DNA of 64,000 nucleotides from Rhodoferax lacus (GTDB lineage Bacteria; Pseudomonadota; Gammaproteobacteria; Burkholderiales; Burkholderiaceae_C), in contig NZ_QFZK01000009.1 of NCBI RefSeq assembly GCF_003415675.1, positions 1-64,000 on the forward strand, written 5' to 3'. Below the pieces are notes generated by a model. It was not told the DNA's origin, made no database searches, and worked only from the letters and a program-made list of their open reading frames with translations. Of this stretch, positions 2,727 to 14,490 are shown one piece after another. Position numbers and translations under genes: made by a program. Position 1 is the stretch's first letter; each line of letters opens with the position of its first letter.

Positions 2727-3632
2727 ATGCTTACTTTTCAGCAAATCATTCTCAGACTGCAGGACTACTGGGACCGCCAGGGTTGCGCACTGCTGCAACC
2801 CTATGACATGGAAGTTGGCGCAGGCACCTCGCACACCGCCACCTTTTTGCGCGCCATTGGCCCCGAGCCCTGGAAGGCCGCCTATGTGCAGCCCAGCCGC
2901 CGCCCCAAAGACGGCCGCTACGGCGAGAACCCCAACCGCCTGCAGCACTACTACCAATACCAGGTGGTGCTCAAGCCCGCGCCGGCCAACATTCTTGAGC
3001 TGTACCTGGGCTCACTCGAAGCCCTGGGCTTCGACCTGAAGAAGAACGACATCCGCTTCGTGGAAGACGATTGGGAAAACCCCACGCTGGGCGCCTGGGG
3101 CCTGGGTTGGGAAGTCTGGCTCAACGGCATGGAAGTCACGCAGTTCACCTACTTCCAGCAGGTCGGCGGAATTGACTGCAAGCCAGCCACCGGCGAAATC
3201 ACTTACGGTCTGGAGCGCCTGGCCATGTACCTGCAGGGTGTGGACAACGTCTACAACCTGGTGTGGACGGAAGGCATGTCCTACGGAGACGTTTACAAGC
3301 AAAACGAAGTGGAGCAATCCACCTACAACTTCGAGCACAGCGACGCCGACTTCCTGTTCACCGCCTTCACTGCGCATGAGAAGCAGGCCAAGCACCTGAT
3401 CGAAGTGCAATTGGCCTTGCCCGCCTACGAGCAAGTACTCAAGTGCGCGCACAGCTTTAACCTGCTGGACGCACGCGGCGCCATCAGCGTGACCGAGCGC
3501 GCCGCCTACATTGGCCGCATCCGCAACCTGGCGCGCGCCGTGGCCCAAAGTTATTACGAGAGCCGTGAGCGTCTGGGCTTCCCCATGGCGCCGCGCGAAT
3601 GGATAGACAACATGCCCAAGAAGGCTGCATAA
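2727..3632 (+). CDS. glyQ: Glycine--tRNA ligase alpha subunit
   Basis: Catalytic alpha subunit of the bacterial alpha2beta2 glycyl-tRNA synthetase, a class II enzyme. The 301-residue length and sequence are typical: [17 protein letters not shown] at the start, then the [20 protein letters not shown] segment and [18 protein letters not shown] near the middle. The gene lies one base upstream of glyS, the usual arrangement. A 90-base gap separates it from lnt and could hold its own promoter, but I see no clear -35/-10 pair or terminator there. Confidence 0.97.
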
Positions 3633-3633
3633 G

Positions 3634-5778
3634 ATGACGACGAAAAACCTTCTGGTTGAACTGTTTGTGGAAGAGCTGCCACCCAAGGCGCTCAAGAAGC
3701 TGGGCGAAGCATTCGCCTCCGTACTGGCGGACTCGCTCAAGGCGCAGGGCCTGGCCGTGGCCAATGCGGTGGTCACCCACTTCGCTTCACCGCGCCGCCT
3801 GGCGGTGCACCTCACCTCGGTGGCCGCGCAGGCCGCCAACAAATCTGTGTCCGCCAAGCTGATGCCTGTGTCGGTGGGCCTGAACGCCGAAGGCCAGGCC
3901 ACACCCGCACTGCTCAAGAAGCTGGCCGCCCTCGGTGCCGATGCCTCCGCAGTGTCCGGCTTGAAGCGCGCCCTGGATGGCAAGGCCGAAGCCCTGTATT
4001 TTGAAAGCATGGTCACCGGCGTGACCTTGGCCGAGGGCTTGCAAAAAGCGCTGGAAGAGTCGCTGGCCAAGCTGCCCATCCCCAAGGTCATGAGCTACCA
4101 GCTGGGTGCCGAGAGTGGATGCGAATTGCCGGGCTGGAGCAGCGTGAGCTTTGTGCGTCCGGCCCACGGCCTGGTGGCGCTGCATGGCGCGGACGTGGTG
4201 CCGGTCAGCGTGTTGGGCCTGAAGGCCGGCAACAGCACCCAGGGTCACCGGTTTGAAGCGGCCGTGTCGCCCGTAGTCCTTGCCGATGCCGACAGCTACG
4301 CGCACGCGCTGCGCACCGATGGCGCCGTAATTGCCAGCTTTGCCGAGCGCCGCGCCGACATCGTGCGCCAGTTGACTGAGGCTGCTGCCAAGGTAGGCCA
4401 TGGTGCCCGGGCCATCGAGGATGAAGCCCTGCTGGACGAAGTCACCGGTCTGGTCGAGCGCCCCAACGTGCTGATTTGCAGCTTCGAAGAACAGTTTCTG
4501 GCCGTGCCGCAGGAATGCCTGATTCTCACCATGAAGGCCAATCAGAAGTACTTCCCGCTGCTCGACGCAACAGGCCGCCTGAGCAACCAGTTCCTGGTGG
4601 TCAGCAATATTTCGCCAGAAGATGCCAGCGCCGTCATTGGCGGCAACGAGCGCGTGGTGCGCCCGCGCCTGGCCGATGCCAAGTTCTTCTTTGACCAGGA
4701 CCGCAAGCGCACACTCGAATCACGCGTGGCCGGACTGGACAAAGTGGTCTACCACAACAAGCTGGGCACGCAAGGACAGCGCAGCGAGCGCGTGCGCGAC
4801 ATTGCCAAAGTGATTGTCGAACTGCTCGCGTTGTCCGGCGAGGCACAGGGCGAGGCACTGGCCGCACAGGCCGATACCGCTGCGCGCCTGGCCAAGACCG
4901 ATCTGGTCACCGACATGGTGGGCGAGTTCCCCGAACTGCAAGGCATCATGGGCGGCTACTACGCGCGCCATGACGGCCTGGGAGACGAAGTCGCCTACGC
5001 CATTGAAGACCACTACAAGCCGCGCTTTGCAGGCGACGATCTGCCGCGCAACAGCGCGGGTGTGGTGGTGGCCCTGGCCGACAAGCTCGAAACCCTGGTG
5101 GGCATGTTTGGCATCGGCAATTTGCCCACCGGCGACAAGGACCCGTTCGCCCTGCGCCGCCACGCCCTGGGCGTGATCCGCATGCTGGTGGAAAAAGACC
5201 TGCCGCTGGACCTGCAACTGCTGCTGCCTGCTGCGGTGCCGGCCTTTGGCGCGCTCATCACCGATGCCACACCGGCCCTGGCCGATTTCATCTACGACCG
5301 CCTGGCCGGATCCCTGCGCGAGCAGGGCTACAGCGCGCAGGAAGTCGACGCCGTGCTGGCCCTGCGCCCCAAGCGTCTGGGCGATATTCCCAAACGCCTG
5401 CTGGCCGTGCGCGCCTTTGCTGCCCTGCCCGCAAGCGCCGCACTCGCAGCGGCCAACAAGCGCATCAGCAATATCCTGAAAAAAGCCGACGACGTGGATG
5501 CCCATGTCAGCCCCGTGCTGCTGGTGGAGGCGGCCGAAAAGACGCTGCACGCAGCCATGCAAACCGTGCTGCCACAGGCGCAAGGCCAATGGGAGGCGGG
5601 CGACTACACCGCGTCCCTGCAGTCGCTGGCGGCATTGCGCGCTCCGGTGGACGCCTTCTTTGAAGACGTGATGGTCAATGCCGAGGCACTGGACCTGCGC
5701 CTGAACCGACTGGGCCTGCTCAAGAGCCTGCATCTGGCCATGAACCGCGTGGCCGATCTCTCCAAACTGGCCAGCTAA
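3634..5778 (+). CDS. glyS: Glycine--tRNA ligase beta subunit
   Basis: Beta subunit of heterotetrameric glycyl-tRNA synthetase, thought to contribute tRNA recognition. At 714 residues it has the usual family length. Recognisable stretches are LLVELFVEELPPKALKKLG at the N-terminus, NQKYFPLLD and DAKFFFDQDRK near the middle, and a DALR-type anticodon-binding C-terminus with LNRLGLLKSLHLAMNRVADLSKL. The ATG lies immediately after the glyQ stop, so the two subunits are presumably made from one message. No frame disruption is seen. Confidence 0.97.
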   Translation: MTTKNLLVELFVEELPPKALKKLGEAFASVLADSLKAQGLAVANAVVTHFASPRRLAVHLTSVAAQAANKSVSAKLMPVSVGLNAEGQATPALLKKLAALGADASAVSGLKRALDGKAEALYFESMVTGVTLAEGLQKALEESLAKLPIPKVMSYQLGAESGCELPGWSSVSFVRPAHGLVALHGADVVPVSVLGLKAGNSTQGHRFEAAVSPVVLADADSYAHALRTDGAVIASFAERRADIVRQLTEAAAKVGHGARAIEDEALLDEVTGLVERPNVLICSFEEQFLAVPQECLILTMKANQKYFPLLDATGRLSNQFLVVSNISPEDASAVIGGNERVVRPRLADAKFFFDQDRKRTLESRVAGLDKVVYHNKLGTQGQRSERVRDIAKVIVELLALSGEAQGEALAAQADTAARLAKTDLVTDMVGEFPELQGIMGGYYARHDGLGDEVAYAIEDHYKPRFAGDDLPRNSAGVVVALADKLETLVGMFGIGNLPTGDKDPFALRRHALGVIRMLVEKDLPLDLQLLLPAAVPAFGALITDATPALADFIYDRLAGSLREQGYSAQEVDAVLALRPKRLGDIPKRLLAVRAFAALPASAALAAANKRISNILKKADDVDAHVSPVLLVEAAEKTLHAAMQTVLPQAQGQWEAGDYTASLQSLAALRAPVDAFFEDVMVNAEALDLRLNRLGLLKSLHLAMNRVADLSKLAS

Positions 5779-5795
5779 GCTGCACAAGGGCTCCC

Positions 5796-6341
5796 ATGAA
5801 ACTCTGCATCCTTGACCGCGACGGCACCATCAATGAAGACAGCGATGAGTATGTCAAGTCGCCCGCCGAGTGGCAGCCCTTGCCCGGCGCGCTGGAGGCC
5901 ATTGCCCGCATCAACCACGCCGGGTGGCATGTGGTGGTGGTGACCAACCAGTCGGGCCTGGGACGCGGCCTGTTTGATGTGAGCTCCCTTAACGCCATGC
6001 ACGCCAAGATGCACGAGATGCTGGCGGCGGTGGGTGGCCGCATCGACGCCATCTTTTACTGCCCGCACGCACCCGAAGACAACTGCAGCTGCCGCAAACC
6101 GGCCTCGGGCCTGTATGAGCAGATTGCAGAACGCTATGGACTGGACCTCACTGGCATGCCCACCGTGGGTGACTCGGTGCGTGATCTGGTGGCGGGCACC
6201 GCGGTAGGTTGCGCACCGCACCTGGTGCTGACCGGCAAGGCAGCGGCCTTGCGCGGGCGCGAACTGCCCGAAGGCTTTCCACCCGGCACCCTGGTGCACG
6301 AAGACCTGGCTGCCTTTGCCCAGCATCTGGTGAGCCAGTAA
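5796..6341 (+). CDS. gmhB: D-glycero-beta-D-manno-heptose 1,7-bisphosphate 7-phosphatase
   Basis: HAD-superfamily phosphatase of the ADP-heptose branch of lipopolysaccharide core synthesis. The nucleophile motif DRDGT supplies D7 and D9. A zinc-binding loop with the pattern CPH..(5)..CSC is present at residues 89-99, which is diagnostic for GmhB, followed by the GDSVRDL acidic motif. The 181-residue length is normal. The gene follows glyS by 17 bases. In many relatives plsC comes next; here the next gene is a YgjP-type protease instead. Confidence 0.93.
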   Translation: MKLCILDRDGTINEDSDEYVKSPAEWQPLPGALEAIARINHAGWHVVVVTNQSGLGRGLFDVSSLNAMHAKMHEMLAAVGGRIDAIFYCPHAPEDNCSCRKPASGLYEQIAERYGLDLTGMPTVGDSVRDLVAGTAVGCAPHLVLTGKAAALRGRELPEGFPPGTLVHEDLAAFAQHLVSQ

Positions 6342-6373
6342 GGCGCCAGAACTACGTGCTTCCTGGCGCTTTG
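6341..6373 (+). terminator. Possible weak intrinsic terminator after gmhB
   Basis: AGGCGCCAG at 6341-6349 can pair with CTGGCGCTT at 6363-6371 (nine pairs, one G-T), leaving a 13-base loop. Only a short T stretch follows, so termination would be inefficient. Confidence 0.35.
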
Positions 6374-6393
6374 ACTCTGCTGCGTTGACAAGC

Positions 6394-7404
6394 ATGTTGC
6401 CCCTGTTGCGCTTCACCTTGGACCTGTTCTCCAGCGAACCGGCGGCGTGTCCGCCAGCGCCCACGCAAAGCGGGACCAAACCACGCTTGAACAAGGGGCG
6501 TGTGAAGGGGACAAATCCCCATTCTCCTTCCCCCTATGCGGCACCACCTGTCGCGCGCCCGCTCGCGCTAACGCCCAGCACACCCGGAGCTGAGCCACAG
6601 CCAGCACGTGACAAACCCGCCTTTGTGCCCGGCATCCTGCTGCCCGGCGCCATAGACCCGGCGCACTTTGCCCACCCTCAGGCCAACCGTGAGGTGCGCT
6701 TGGCCGATGCGGTGGTGGCCTATGCCTTCACCCGGGCCAAGCGTAAATCCATAGGCTTTGTCATCGGGCCGGACGGTCTGGTGGTGCGCGCTCCGCGCTG
6801 GACGCCGCTGCATGAAGTGGATGCCGCATTGCAGGAAAAAGGAGGCTGGATTTTGCGCAAGCTGCAGGAATCGCGCGAGCGCCAAAGCCGTGCCCACAGC
6901 GCGCGCGTGGAGTGGCGCGATGGCGTGGAAATTCCCTTTCTGGGCCAGACCATTACCGTGGTGCTGGACCCTACACATGGCTTCAGTGGTCGCGGCGCAC
7001 AGCTCCAGTCAGACGAACAAGCCCTGCACGTAGGCCTGCCCAAAACCGCCAGCGCCGACCAGATTCGTGATGCCGTGCAGGCCTGGCTGATGCGCCAGGC
7101 TGCGGCCAACTTCAAGGAGCGCATGGAACACTTCACGCCGCTTCTGGGCGTGCAGTGGAAGAAGCTGCGCCTGAGCAGTGCGGGCACACGCTGGGGCAGC
7201 GCCAGTGCCGATGGCTCCATCCGCCTGAACTGGCGGCTGATCCATTTCCGCCAACCGGTGATTGACTACGTGGTGGCACACGAGCTCAGCCACCTGCGGG
7301 TGATGGACCACAGCCAGAACTTCTGGAACACCGTGGCCACCGTGGTGCCGGACTACCAGAGTCTGCGGGCGCAGCTCAAGGAAGACGCAGTCCCCAAGTG
7401 GTAA
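6394..7404 (+). CDS. YgjP-like (M48/DUF45-type) metallopeptidase domain protein
   Basis: Predicted zinc metallopeptidase of the YgjP/DUF45 family, 336 residues from the ATG at 6394 (a TTG nine bases upstream is an alternative). The C-terminal half has the zinc-binding HELSH at residues 296-300 and the companion motif RVMDHSQNFW. Upstream is the KRKSIGFVIGPDGLVVRAPRW segment typical of the family. The first ~100 residues are proline-rich, low in complexity and probably not part of the fold. That segment contains a small DNA palindrome (GGGGACAAATCCCC at 6507-6520). Its cellular role is not established. Confidence 0.8.
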   Translation: MLPLLRFTLDLFSSEPAACPPAPTQSGTKPRLNKGRVKGTNPHSPSPYAAPPVARPLALTPSTPGAEPQPARDKPAFVPGILLPGAIDPAHFAHPQANREVRLADAVVAYAFTRAKRKSIGFVIGPDGLVVRAPRWTPLHEVDAALQEKGGWILRKLQESRERQSRAHSARVEWRDGVEIPFLGQTITVVLDPTHGFSGRGAQLQSDEQALHVGLPKTASADQIRDAVQAWLMRQAAANFKERMEHFTPLLGVQWKKLRLSSAGTRWGSASADGSIRLNWRLIHFRQPVIDYVVAHELSHLRVMDHSQNFWNTVATVVPDYQSLRAQLKEDAVPKW

Positions 7405-7416
7405 GGCAATAAAGCG

Positions 7417-8469
7417 CTAAGGGCTGAAGCGATACACCCCGTCCGCCTCCAACTGCCGCCGTAACTGCCCGCCATGCCACAGCGCATGCAAATGCGCCAC
7501 CGCCTCGCCCAGGGCAAAGGTGATCTGGTGAAAGTCCAGCGGCCGCTTGAACAGCACGGGCAACACATCCGCGGCGCTGCAGGGCTTGGCGCTGCAGGCC
7601 TGCATGACATCGGCCAGGCGCTCGCGGTGGTGGTCGTGCAACTGGCCTATGCGCGTGTGCAGACCGGTGAAGGGCTTGCCGTGCGAAGGCAGCACCAGCG
7701 TGTCCGCAGGCAAGGGCAGAAAGCGGTCAATGGAGGAGAGGAACAGGGTCAGCGCATCGGCCTCGGGCTCCTGCTCGTACACACTCACGTTGGTGGAAAT
7801 GCGCGGCAGCATCATGTCGCCACCAATCAGCACACTCAAGTCCGCGCAGTACAGCGCCATGTGTTCGGGCGCGTGGCCGTAGCCGCTGATGCAGCTCCAG
7901 CGGTGCGCGCCAATTTGCAGCGTGCCGCCATCCAGCAGTCGGTGGAACTGGTCGGGGACTGACGGCACCAGGTTCGTGAAGTAGGGCTTGCGCTCCAGTA
8001 GTTTGCGCGCTGTCTCGGCGTCGTTCAGTCCATGCTGTGCGTAAAACTGCACCGTGCGCTCGCCACTGAAGGTGTCTTGCCCGGTGCAGGCCATGCGTAC
8101 CACCATAAAGTCGGTGGCGCTGATATACAGCGGCGCGTTCCAGCGGGTGCACAGCCAGTGCGCCAGGCCAATATGGTCCGGGTGCATGTGGGTGACGATG
8201 ATGCGCAGCACCGGCAGGCCTTCCAGCTCGTTGGCGAAGATCTCTTCCCACTGGGCCCGGGCCTCCTCGCGGTGGATGCAGCAGTCCACAATGCTCCAGC
8301 CTGCTACGCCATCGATCTCGTCGCGCAGCAGCCAGAGGTTGATGTGGTTGAGCGCAAAGGGCAGCGCCATGCGGATCCACTTCACGCCGGGTGCCACTTC
8401 CAGGCAACGCCCGGGCTCGGGCAGGGTTTCGCCCAGGGGATAGTGCAGCTGCTTTTCAAGTTCGTTCAT
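7417..8469 (-). CDS. MBL-fold metallo-hydrolase
   Basis: Metallo-beta-lactamase-fold hydrolase of 350 residues. The metal-binding motif H94-M-H96-P-D98-H99 sits in VTHMHPDHIG, and later histidines occur in SGYGHAPEHM and VLPSHGKPF, giving the glyoxalase II-like ligand set. A C-terminal winged-helix-like extension is likely. The substrate is unknown. The gene is divergent from the LiuR-type regulator and its start lies 22 bases from a perfect 22-bp palindrome, so it probably belongs to the LiuR regulon and could act as a thioesterase/hydrolase in acyl-CoA metabolism. That role is inference from context. Confidence 0.85.
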   Translation of the reverse strand: MNELEKQLHYPLGETLPEPGRCLEVAPGVKWIRMALPFALNHINLWLLRDEIDGVAGWSIVDCCIHREEARAQWEEIFANELEGLPVLRIIVTHMHPDHIGLAHWLCTRWNAPLYISATDFMVVRMACTGQDTFSGERTVQFYAQHGLNDAETARKLLERKPYFTNLVPSVPDQFHRLLDGGTLQIGAHRWSCISGYGHAPEHMALYCADLSVLIGGDMMLPRISTNVSVYEQEPEADALTLFLSSIDRFLPLPADTLVLPSHGKPFTGLHTRIGQLHDHHRERLADVMQACSAKPCSAADVLPVLFKRPLDFHQITFALGEAVAHLHALWHGGQLRRQLEADGVYRFSP

Positions 8470-12215: not shown

Positions 12216-13397
12216 ATGTCTGAATCCATTGTCATCGTCAGCGCCGCCCGCACGCCCATGGGTGGCTTTCTGGGCGACTTCGCATCGCTTGCCGCGCACG
12301 ACCTGGGCGGTGCGGCCATCCGCGCCGCCGTGGAGCGCGCCGGCATTGCCCCCGAGCTGGTCACCGAGGTGATTTTTGGCAACTGCCTGATGGCAGGCCA
12401 GGGCCAGGCGCCCGCGCGCCAGGCGGCCTTCAAGGGCGGCCTGCCCAAGAGCGCGGGTGCGGTGACGCTCTCCAAGATGTGCGGCTCCGGCATGCGCGCG
12501 GCCATGTTTGCCCACGACATGCTGCTGGCGGGCAGCCACGACGTGCTGGTGGCAGGTGGCATGGAGAGCATGACCAATGCGCCGCACCTGCTGCCCAAAG
12601 GTCGCACCGGCATCCGCATCGGCCACGACCGCGTGATGGACCACATGATGCTGGACGGCCTTGAAGACGCCTACGAGCCCGGCCGCTCCATGGGCACCTT
12701 TGGCGAAGACTGCGCCGCCAAATACGGCTTCACCCGCGAACAGCAGGACGCCTTCGCCACGGCCAGCGTGCAGCGCGCGCAGGCTGCTATTCAGAACGGC
12801 GGCTTTGCGGCTGAGATCACGCCGGTCACCGTGAAGACGCGCTCCGGCGAGGTGCTGGTGTCCATCGACGAAGGCCCGGGCAAGATCAAGCTCGACAAGA
12901 TTCCCACCCTGCGCGCCGCCTTCAAAAAAGACGGCACCATCACAGCCGCCAGCAGCAGCTCCATCAACGATGGCGCCGCTGCCATGGTGATGATGCGTGC
13001 CGATACGGCGGTGCAGTTGGGCTGCAAGCCGCTGGCCCGTCTGGTGGCGCACGCCAACCACGCGCAGGAGCCCAACTGGTTTGCTACCGCGCCCGTGGGT
13101 GCGGTGCAGAAGGTGCTGGCCAAGGCTGGTTGGTCTGTGAATGATGTGGACCTGTGGGAAATCAACGAGGCCTTCGCCGTAGTGCCCATGGCGCTGATGG
13201 CGGAGTTGTCCATTCCGCACGAGAAGGTGAATGTGAATGGCGGCGCCTGTGCCTTGGGTCACCCCATTGGTGCATCGGGTGCGCGCATCATGGTGACCTT
13301 GATGCATGCCTTGAAGGCGCGGGGCCTCAAGCGCGGTGTGGCGACTTTGTGCATAGGTGGCGGTGAGGCTACGGCGGTGGCGCTGGAAATGTTTTGA
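12216..13397 (+). CDS. Acetyl-CoA C-acyltransferase (thiolase)
   Basis: 393-residue degradative/biosynthetic thiolase. The three active-site elements are visible: nucleophile C89 in KMCGSGMRA, H349 in ALGHPIGASGARI and C379 in LCIGGGEATA. It opens with IVIVSAARTPMGGF. Within this cluster it would cleave acetoacetyl-CoA, the end product after HMG-CoA lyase and CoA activation of acetoacetate, though other beta-ketoacyl-CoA substrates are possible. An AGGAG site lies 8 bases before the ATG. Confidence 0.92.
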   Translation: MSESIVIVSAARTPMGGFLGDFASLAAHDLGGAAIRAAVERAGIAPELVTEVIFGNCLMAGQGQAPARQAAFKGGLPKSAGAVTLSKMCGSGMRAAMFAHDMLLAGSHDVLVAGGMESMTNAPHLLPKGRTGIRIGHDRVMDHMMLDGLEDAYEPGRSMGTFGEDCAAKYGFTREQQDAFATASVQRAQAAIQNGGFAAEITPVTVKTRSGEVLVSIDEGPGKIKLDKIPTLRAAFKKDGTITAASSSSINDGAAAMVMMRADTAVQLGCKPLARLVAHANHAQEPNWFATAPVGAVQKVLAKAGWSVNDVDLWEINEAFAVVPMALMAELSIPHEKVNVNGGACALGHPIGASGARIMVTLMHALKARGLKRGVATLCIGGGEATAVALEMF

Positions 13398-13445: not shown

Positions 13446-13524
13446 GCACCGCGGCCGGGTGTGCCGGGGGCCTCATAGTGCCAAACGCGCACAAATCGGC
13501 CCCCGGCACACCCGACCACGGCGC
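13446..13524 (+). repeat. Conserved-loop stem-loop repeat, copy 1
   Basis: A 17-bp perfect stem (13456-13472 with 13498-13514) closes a 25-base loop at 13473-13497, which contains GTGCCAAACGCGCACAAATC. Pairing continues outward with mismatches to about 13446/13524. The loop matches that of copy 2 at 24 of 25 positions, while the stems share only the four inner pairs GGCC/GGCC. Confidence 0.75.
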
Positions 13525-13647
13525 TCGTCCTGGACTGGGAGAGAGTGGGGTGCACGTTTTTTCGCATGGGTCGCAGGTTATCGACTCGCGAAGTAGCCGT
13601 AGTTTGGCCTTCGGTATTTTCACGGCGCGCCAACCCCATCACTACAA

Positions 13648-13722
13648 GCGCGCAGGGGCAGGGCAACCGGCCGATTTGTGCGCGTTTGGCACCATGAGGC
13701 CGGTTGCTCTGCGCCTGCGCGC
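13648..13722 (-). repeat. Conserved-loop stem-loop repeat, copy 2 (inverted)
   Basis: The same 25-base loop appears in reverse orientation at 13673-13697 (one substitution). It is closed by a stem of about 25 pairs, 13648-13672 with 13698-13722, with one G-T pair and one mismatch. The stem sequence (for example GCAACCGGCC/GGCCGGTTGC) is unlike that of copy 1. Conserved loop with freely changed but still paired stem suggests selection on structure. Confidence 0.75.
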
Positions 13723-13815
13723 GCCCCAAGCCCGGCAGAGCGAAATGCACCCCCAAAGCCACCCCAAAAGCCAACGCACCAATCAGCACAAAGAAAACAA
13801 CAAGGGCCACCTCCC

Positions 13816-14490
13816 ATGAACGTCCTCCTCATTGGCGCATCGCGCGGCATAGGCCTGGAGTTCGCACGGCAGTACATCGATGCGGGTGACCGTGTGATCG
13901 CTACTGCACGTGATGCGGAGGGCCTGCAGCGGCTGCAGGATCTGGGTGCCCAGACTATGAAGCTCGACGTGAGCGACCCCGCCAGCATCAGCAGCCTGAG
14001 CTGGAAGCTCGATGGTGAGAAGCTCGACCTGGCGATCTACATTGCGGGCGTGTTCTCCACAGAGGGTGCGCTCTCGCCGCCCACACAGCAAAGCTTTGAC
14101 CGCCTGCTGCACACCAACGTGCTGGGTGCCATGCAGGCCATTCCGCAGGTGGCGCCCTGGGTGGAAGAGGCGGGTGGACAGTTTGCGTTCATCACCAGCG
14201 ACATGGGCCGCATCGGCGGCGTGTCTGGCAGCCGCGGCTGGCTGTACCAGGTGAGTAAGGCGGCTTTGAACATGGCGGTGGTGGCCGCACAGCCCGACTA
14301 TCCGCGCGCCGGCTTTGTGCTGTTCCACCCTGGTTGGGTGCAGACCGATATGGGCACGGCCGCGGCACCTCTGCATGTGGAAGACAGCGTGTCCGGCATG
14401 CGCCGCACGCTGCTTGGTTTAAAGGGGGCCCCCAAGCCGCCGCAGGTGCCCTTTCTGAACTGGGACGGCGCCGCCTTCACCACCTGGTAG
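13816..14490 (+). CDS. Short-chain dehydrogenase/reductase family protein
   Basis: 224-residue classical SDR. The NAD(P)-binding motif GASRGIG is at residues 7-13 and the catalytic residues S128, Y144 and K148 lie in ITSDMGRIGG and YQVSKAA. The sequence PGWVQTDMG follows, as in C-factor/carbonyl-reductase-like SDRs. The ATG at 13816 is the natural family start; longer readings run into the repeat block. The substrate is unknown. It precedes an acyl-CoA dehydrogenase by 30 bases and may be cotranscribed with it. Confidence 0.88.
   Translation: MNVLLIGASRGIGLEFARQYIDAGDRVIATARDAEGLQRLQDLGAQTMKLDVSDPASISSLSWKLDGEKLDLAIYIAGVFSTEGALSPPTQQSFDRLLHTNVLGAMQAIPQVAPWVEEAGGQFAFITSDMGRIGGVSGSRGWLYQVSKAALNMAVVAAQPDYPRAGFVLFHPGWVQTDMGTAAAPLHVEDSVSGMRRTLLGLKGAPKPPQVPFLNWDGAAFTTW

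Follow-up and report, generated by a model that had tools for sequence, protein, structure and literature searches.

Two inverted hairpins beside a thiolase gene

The window (the whole stretch of 64,000 nucleotides from Rhodoferax lacus that was analysed) carries two long hairpins in inverted orientation, situated between a thiolase gene and an ORF which we take, from a sequence motif, to be short-chain dehydrogenase-like. The features of the locus are the following, F standing for the selected strand of each hairpin:

12216-13397, plus strand: upstream neighbour, thiolase (Pfam Thiolase_N/Thiolase_C), a host gene outside the element
13446-13524, F on the minus strand: left hairpin (match to covariance model R2, 84.4 bits, E 7e-15; this hairpin is a member of the model's own alignment and the score is not independent)
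13473-13497, minus strand: left internal loop and apical hairpin, apical part 13478-13492
13525-13645, no strand: spacer separating both stems, 121 bp
13646-13724, F on the plus strand: right hairpin (match to R2, 69.7 bits, E 1.4e-11)
13673-13697, plus strand: right internal loop and apical hairpin, apical part 13678-13692
13816-14490, plus strand: downstream neighbour, short-chain dehydrogenase-like ORF, a host gene outside the element

An earlier note on this DNA had described two copies sharing 24 of 25 loop bases above long self-complementary stems, and both observations were borne out. The 25-nt tips (the right one read on the minus strand) differ by a single base, A/G, the left apical part being of a 15-nt type (GTGCGCGTTTGGCAC on F). 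Counted by eye, Watson-Crick pairing runs unbroken for 17 positions of the left stem and covers 24/27 in total; the three exceptions are A.C as written and hence read G.T on the minus strand. Of the 27 positions of the right stem, 23 are Watson-Crick paired and one is G.T. The pair is beyond chance: a 19-base tip pattern (up to 3 mismatches) occurs twice in the window, against a mean of 0.04 in shuffled sequences, none of 100 shuffles giving two.

At the same locus, 11 of 30 stretches taken from relatives hold a copy, single or paired and in either orientation, and the remaining ones hold short or unrelated intergenic DNA; loss could be the cause of these copy-free loci. The left stem is common to the window and to the relatives G014, G032 and G006; G006 has the tip type of the window, and G014 and G032 share a different one. 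The tip can therefore change while the stem stays. The thiolase locus of G007 (L242) has a 36-nt apical hairpin in place of the usual one on a stem that is otherwise orthologous. In our reading, the differences between the orthologous copies of four relatives step through G.T.

A family of structured repeats

The window hairpins are two of a larger family of structured repeats. Model R2 gave 60 matches in the window's own genome (E <=0.001), two of which are the opposite strand of others and one of which is weak, so that about 57 copies are present. The core pattern occurs there 69 times (57 occurrences coincide with R2 matches and 12 do not), with none for the reversed control. Each copy consists of a 25-27 bp stem, an internal loop and an apical hairpin whose type differs by subfamily. 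The conserved internal loop reads CGATTT-hairpin-YATGAG on F (CTCATR and AAATCG on the other strand). Among 60 distinct model-found sites, kept from 81 matches, CGATTT is retained in 59 and YATGAG in 56, counts that lean towards the core because the model was built from exact-core copies, some of them in the same loci.

The invariant 25-nt loop of the earlier note thus holds for the CGATTT and YATGAG strands and not for the apical hairpin, as the covariance model recovered relatives with several apical hairpin types between the conserved strands. The idea that the stem is kept by structure fared better, fold and tip motif both being retained across some 200 copies. Far more loops exist than the two in the window. 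Nor did homologues with unpaired flanks appear as a class: 43 distinct rows from the fetched loci came within 3 mismatches of the 19-base tip pattern, and the flanks were unpaired in 5 of them, with 2-3 mismatches each. Alignment A1, gathered by tip sequence with strand ignored, comprises 37 of these rows, leaving out the five with unpaired flanks and one that is paired and base-shifted. Alignment A3 is oriented by F and holds 64 of 75 selected copies, which were themselves chosen from 211.

Readings from Rfam were rejected: the 12 matches in 551 bases, of which 9 are to microRNA families, all fell below gathering scores and reflect likeness of the stem only. No description of the family was found in the open PMC texts searched, where the Bordetella-associated repeat BRE was known by description only.

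Stem pairing and selection of one strand

The covariance check that the earlier note had proposed for the stems gave a clear result. In A1, 26 of the 27 outer pairs show changes on both sides; an inner pair is flipped from G-C to C-G in 10 of 37 rows. In A3, cells with both sides changed number 675 against 207 after shuffling, and 95.0% of cells are paired, a value that drops to 37-47% when the arms are slid. The sequence of the stem is variable yet non-random, with a preference for a G-rich 5' arm.

Pairing along the stem, measured on 186 non-redundant copies, is at least 0.91 at positions 3-24 (0.83 at position 1 and 0.72 at position 2), then falls to 0.78 at position 25 and 0.74 at 26; position 27 has 0.48, and beyond it the value is about 0.3-0.4. 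In the same copies, information content does not exceed 0.37 bits anywhere outside the 27-bp stem, nor 0.56 bits at its last positions. The sharp drop in pairing together with the low information of the flanks indicates a measured stem length and no strongly required foot.

Departures from Watson-Crick pairing are strongly asymmetric. Of 814 stem cells in A1, 715 are Watson-Crick, and the others include 66 A.C and 9 G.T as written, which on the F strand become 66 G.T and 9 A.C. The A.C:G.T ratio, as written in plus orientation, is 38:3 for left and 43:2 for right members of pairs; it is 91:10 for intragenic copies in the same sense as the host gene, 24:4 for those in the opposite sense and 237:24 for the remainder. 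The 60 model-found sites have 89 G.T against 9 A.C on F, in a set where R2, built in F orientation, favours G.T over A.C. Since the bias is the same in either direction of the host gene, host transcription does not explain it. A bias caused by transcription or replication would flip with orientation, which the observed one does not, and so one defined strand, F, is under selection as a folded structure. The earlier suggestion of an element recognised as a fold therefore stands as far as the fold of one strand is concerned, and the recogniser would be a putative one. Tolerance of G.T by itself does not separate single-stranded DNA from RNA.

Inverted pairs

Adjacent inverted neighbours (n=37) have their F strands pointing outward in 33 cases and inward in 4. 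There are 51 distinct outward pairs, a count that takes in orthologues and the copies of one composite; their stems lie 36-316 bp apart. Both members have the same apical type in 44 of the 51, against 13.6 after shuffling, and their 5' arms are hardly more alike than random arms (median likeness 0.48 and 0.44, respectively). The match of apical types holds within the window's own genome (16 of 19 pairs, 6.4 expected) and when the composite is counted once (11 of 11, against 3.0). Loop-loop pairing inside one pair is possible, its members sharing an apical class.

Template switching in quasi-palindromes is a known route to perfected palindromes, and could account for the matched apical hairpins within pairs. 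Stems would then have been perfected by mutation alone, their structure being unselected. We regard this as extremely improbable, as such a process predicts no A.C/G.T bias, against the 66:9 observed, and neither a fixed stem length nor an internal loop conserved in unpaired positions.

Evidence of mobility

One composite pair has about ten occurrences in the window's own genome. Two loci on contigs C67 and C30 (L353 and L366) match at 99.7% identity along 346 bp and lie in different contexts. At a further locus of the same genome (C40:179 kb), the unit is absent from all six relatives in which both flanks lie on one contig, the distance between the matched flanks being 89-148 bp there and 388-479 in the window's own genome. 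Gain of the unit is the best reading of this comparison, which is the one clean empty-site case. A separate terminator-like hairpin, preceded by an A-run, is kept beside the unit at this locus, and the arrangement suggests that the unit is dispensable as a terminator.

The mobile palindrome envisaged in the earlier note gains support from the near-identical duplicate and the empty site. As with REPINs, the unit that moves is an inverted doublet (51 pairs, with one composite duplicated). Many copies are old and inherited by descent, as in the thiolase, CobQ and UvrA loci, so that recent activity is shown for few. No clear target-site duplication, of the sort that accompanies the terminal inverted repeats of MITEs of DDE transposons, was seen at the compared loci, where the ends of the unit could not be fixed. 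The family is real and well supported as a structured repeat, and there is evidence of recent mobility.

Similarity lying outside the elements (150-540 bp) was observed between the element loci L362, L365 and L014; that between L362 and L365 lies in ORFs named from their sequences as chemotaxis-receptor-like, which are probably host paralogues.

Distribution

Of 61 genomes, 19 contain the 19-base tip pattern when up to 2 mismatches are allowed; 18 belong to the same genus, counting the window's own genome, and the matches in G039, G019 and G022 have unpaired flanks. A scan of named-genome contigs returned at least 117 stretches with matches, and the titles among the 80 stretches listed include Rhodoferax, Curvibacter, Serpentinimonas, Hydrogenophaga and Comamonas. 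With model R1 (E 0.001, strict filters), 53 of 299 genomes from the same taxonomic family were positive, representing 34 of 141 genera. Model R2 (E 0.0001) found 4 of 300 genomes in a sample of the order and 2 of 274 in a sample of the class, all in the window's own taxonomic family, so that the repeats are known from one group of bacteria of water and soil. These genome counts are lower bounds because the filters were strict and few candidates were scored per genome. Some relatives of the same genus, such as G346, had no R1 match in the search of 299 genomes. Match numbers per genome range from 3 to about 57. Two exact patterns gave nothing in viral contigs, and one window query gave nothing in plasmid and phage collections.

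Copies within genes and orientation

Of 211 copies, 60 lie within ORFs called by a home-made gene caller (some starts around them being doubtful), 44 in the same sense as the plus orientation and 16 in the opposite one. GGLMLPNAQKSAPG and GLMVPNAHKSAP are among the peptides that these copies encode in MmeI-like, CobQ-like and VgrG-like proteins, and those in the long UvrA proteins are translated in other frames; the UvrA, MmeI, CobQ and VgrG identities, like that of the window thiolase, come from Pfam. The encoded peptides lie in apparent linkers. Long UvrA-like proteins (called at 1729-2330 aa) contain several open-frame copies each, in more than one genus, the hosts being:

L078, about 5155-7202: UvrA-like
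L079, about 3968-8118: UvrA-like
L077, about 3371-5412: UvrA-like

The relation of F to host transcripts bears on whether the element acts as RNA. Both strands would then be transcribed, and an RNA-binding protein or double-strand RNase would bind or cleave the F hairpin and so tune the ends of mRNAs. Passing through G.U-type intermediates is characteristic of drift in RNA, and of the 51 pairs 13 are flanked by convergent genes and 22 by co-directional ones, as called by the same program. In excerpts of the description of a Bordetella repeat of similar length, that repeat coincides with small RNAs (PMC3110155). Against this, the mRNA carries the complement of F for 44 of the 60 intragenic copies and for 55 of 89 copies flanked by co-directional genes, and the mismatch bias stays on F. 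The stems are also not followed by a U-run, T being scarce, and C40:179 kb keeps a terminator-like hairpin distinct from the unit. The selected strand does not depend on the host transcript and is more often antisense to it, which favours DNA over RNA. For the same reason the RNA-binding role raised in the earlier note is disfavoured, and we consider action as RNA unlikely.

The family was also considered as intrinsic terminators, a reading that was rejected: there is no U-run (T makes up 5-18% at positions 27-61 3' of the F stem), and none on the other strand.

For 46 of 64 solitary copies, F lies on the leading-strand template (binomial p 0.0006), as counted in 8 of 12 genomes (G368, G379, G140, G007, G001, G316, G133 and G181) with opposite-strand doubles left out, the terminus assumed opposite dnaA, rounded lengths used for two genomes and shared loci counted repeatedly. 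The proportion varies between genomes, from 11/12 in G140 to 0/4 in G181, and we regard this orientation as a lead. It would suit a host DNA site, for instance one for nucleoid or replication binding or structuring, that spread slowly and was kept for use, as would the long-kept positions in the UvrA, CobQ and thiolase loci and the lack of matches in the plasmid, phage and viral collections to the queries used. A site of this kind sits poorly with a copy number that varies between genomes as widely as reported above and with such loose spacing within pairs, and mobility is suggested by the intragenic copies and the near-identical duplicates. The orientation counts themselves are non-independent. 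We therefore judge a host site decidedly improbable.

Search for a transposase partner

A Y1_Tnp domain (RAYT family) was detected in 222 of the 299 genomes of the taxonomic family and in 46 of the 53 carriers, and was undetected in the other 7 carriers, among them all three sampled carriers of genus g98. A pattern scan of 15 Y1 loci, covering about 1.4 kb on each side (one of 7.5 kb), found no copy; one that is degenerate and lies about 4 kb away from the Y1 gene in G140 went unrecognised by it. RAYT/Y1_Tnp was accordingly rejected as an obligatory partner, and the linked REP-type transposase foreseen in the earlier note was not found. No linked recombinase stood out by eye among the 45 largest clusters of neighbour genes, the biggest of which are host genes of shared loci, named from their sequences.

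Seven short palindromes preceded by GTRG were present at 5 of the 15 Y1 loci, 0.75-1.2 kb off; they were not accepted as REPs, all of them lying inside neighbouring called ORFs. At L454, L461, L464 and L467, a palindrome GCGACAT..ATGTCGC lies about 0.9-1 kb from the Y1_Tnp gene, also within a neighbouring called ORF; in these four genomes it is likely to be a conserved coding stretch. Genome G075 has 14 Y1_Tnp matches, several of them equal-scoring, which suggests an active IS200-like element in this member of the taxonomic family.

Proposed mode of action

On balance, it seems probable that the family is a REPIN-like, non-autonomous mobile DNA palindrome that is read as folded single-stranded DNA. 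The unit would be a pair of inverted hairpins separated by a short spacer, each copy folding on F into a 25-27 bp stem with the internal loop 5'-GATTT/YATGA-3' above it and a small hairpin at the apex. The folded strand would be DNA. A putative trans-acting protein would read the internal loop and the length of the stem on it, and the same protein may copy or move the hairpin pair. Cleavage or transfer of one folded DNA strand has the G.T bias of F as its single, indirect sign. We propose that the sequence of the stem matters mainly as pairing, and that it therefore drifts through G.T intermediates. A more specific version, which we put forward tentatively, is a class of mobile hairpins with a shape code (stem length and one internal loop, not the arms), an exchangeable apical cassette that is matched in pairs, and a single-strand DNA enzyme other than RAYT.

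Sequence is what defines most bacterial repeats. In this family the majority of stem letters vary, and what persists, on one strand, is the pairing, the length of the stem and a short internal loop. The family thereby offers a natural data set on the recognition and upkeep of single-strand DNA structure in chromosomes, and it points to a putative factor in a well-sequenced bacterial family. Matched apical hairpins make exchange or kissing between hairpins directly testable, and the copies in UvrA, CobQ and MmeI-like genes illustrate how such DNA can turn into protein sequence.

Comparison with known palindromic elements

The Rickettsia palindromic elements (RPEs) are palindromic insertions inside genes that keep an open frame and are conserved in sequence. 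The present family resembles them in its open-frame palindromic copies inside genes (60 of 211). It differs in belonging to another lineage and in having a stem that diverges while the fold is kept. The attC sites of integrons are recombination sites folded from a single strand, with variable arms and one active strand. The one-strand fold with variable arms recalls our hairpins; unlike attC sites, these have no conserved boxes at the stem foot (186 copies) and carry their conserved part at the tip.

Closer in host range is BRE, which, in the excerpted description, is 75-91 bp long with about 69% GC, chromosomal, partly intragenic, present in Comamonadaceae and Bordetella, tandem, and found at more than 70% identity (PMC3110155). 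By that description alone, size and GC content are similar. BRE is tandem (PMC3110155), whereas the copies at the loci looked at here are inverted pairs or single. BRE may or may not be part of the present superfamily, as far as its description goes. The family appears to be a new form of palindromic mobile DNA, unless BRE proves to belong to it. Rhodoferax ferrireducens T118 is reported to lead in significant spaced motif pairs, with 140, and these might be such hairpins (PMC5217627).

The nearest likeness is to REPs and REPINs with their RAYTs, which, in excerpts of PMC3733652, PMC3116915 and PMC8266576, are likewise imperfect palindromes with one defined strand, forming inverted doublets that are non-autonomous and occur within genes, uvr genes included. 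REP stems are 5-13 bp long with a GTAG or CGTC foot, according to the same excerpts (PMC3733652, PMC3116915, PMC8266576). Here the stem measures 25-27 bp against those 5-13 bp (PMC3733652, in part), the GTAG/CGTC foot is absent from the 186 copies, and conservation centres on an internal loop close to the tip, with a highly variable stem. Nor was a RAYT gene found beside the copies. The family thus falls outside the REPINs in foot, stem length and RAYT link, and REPIN-like working is still the best reading of it.
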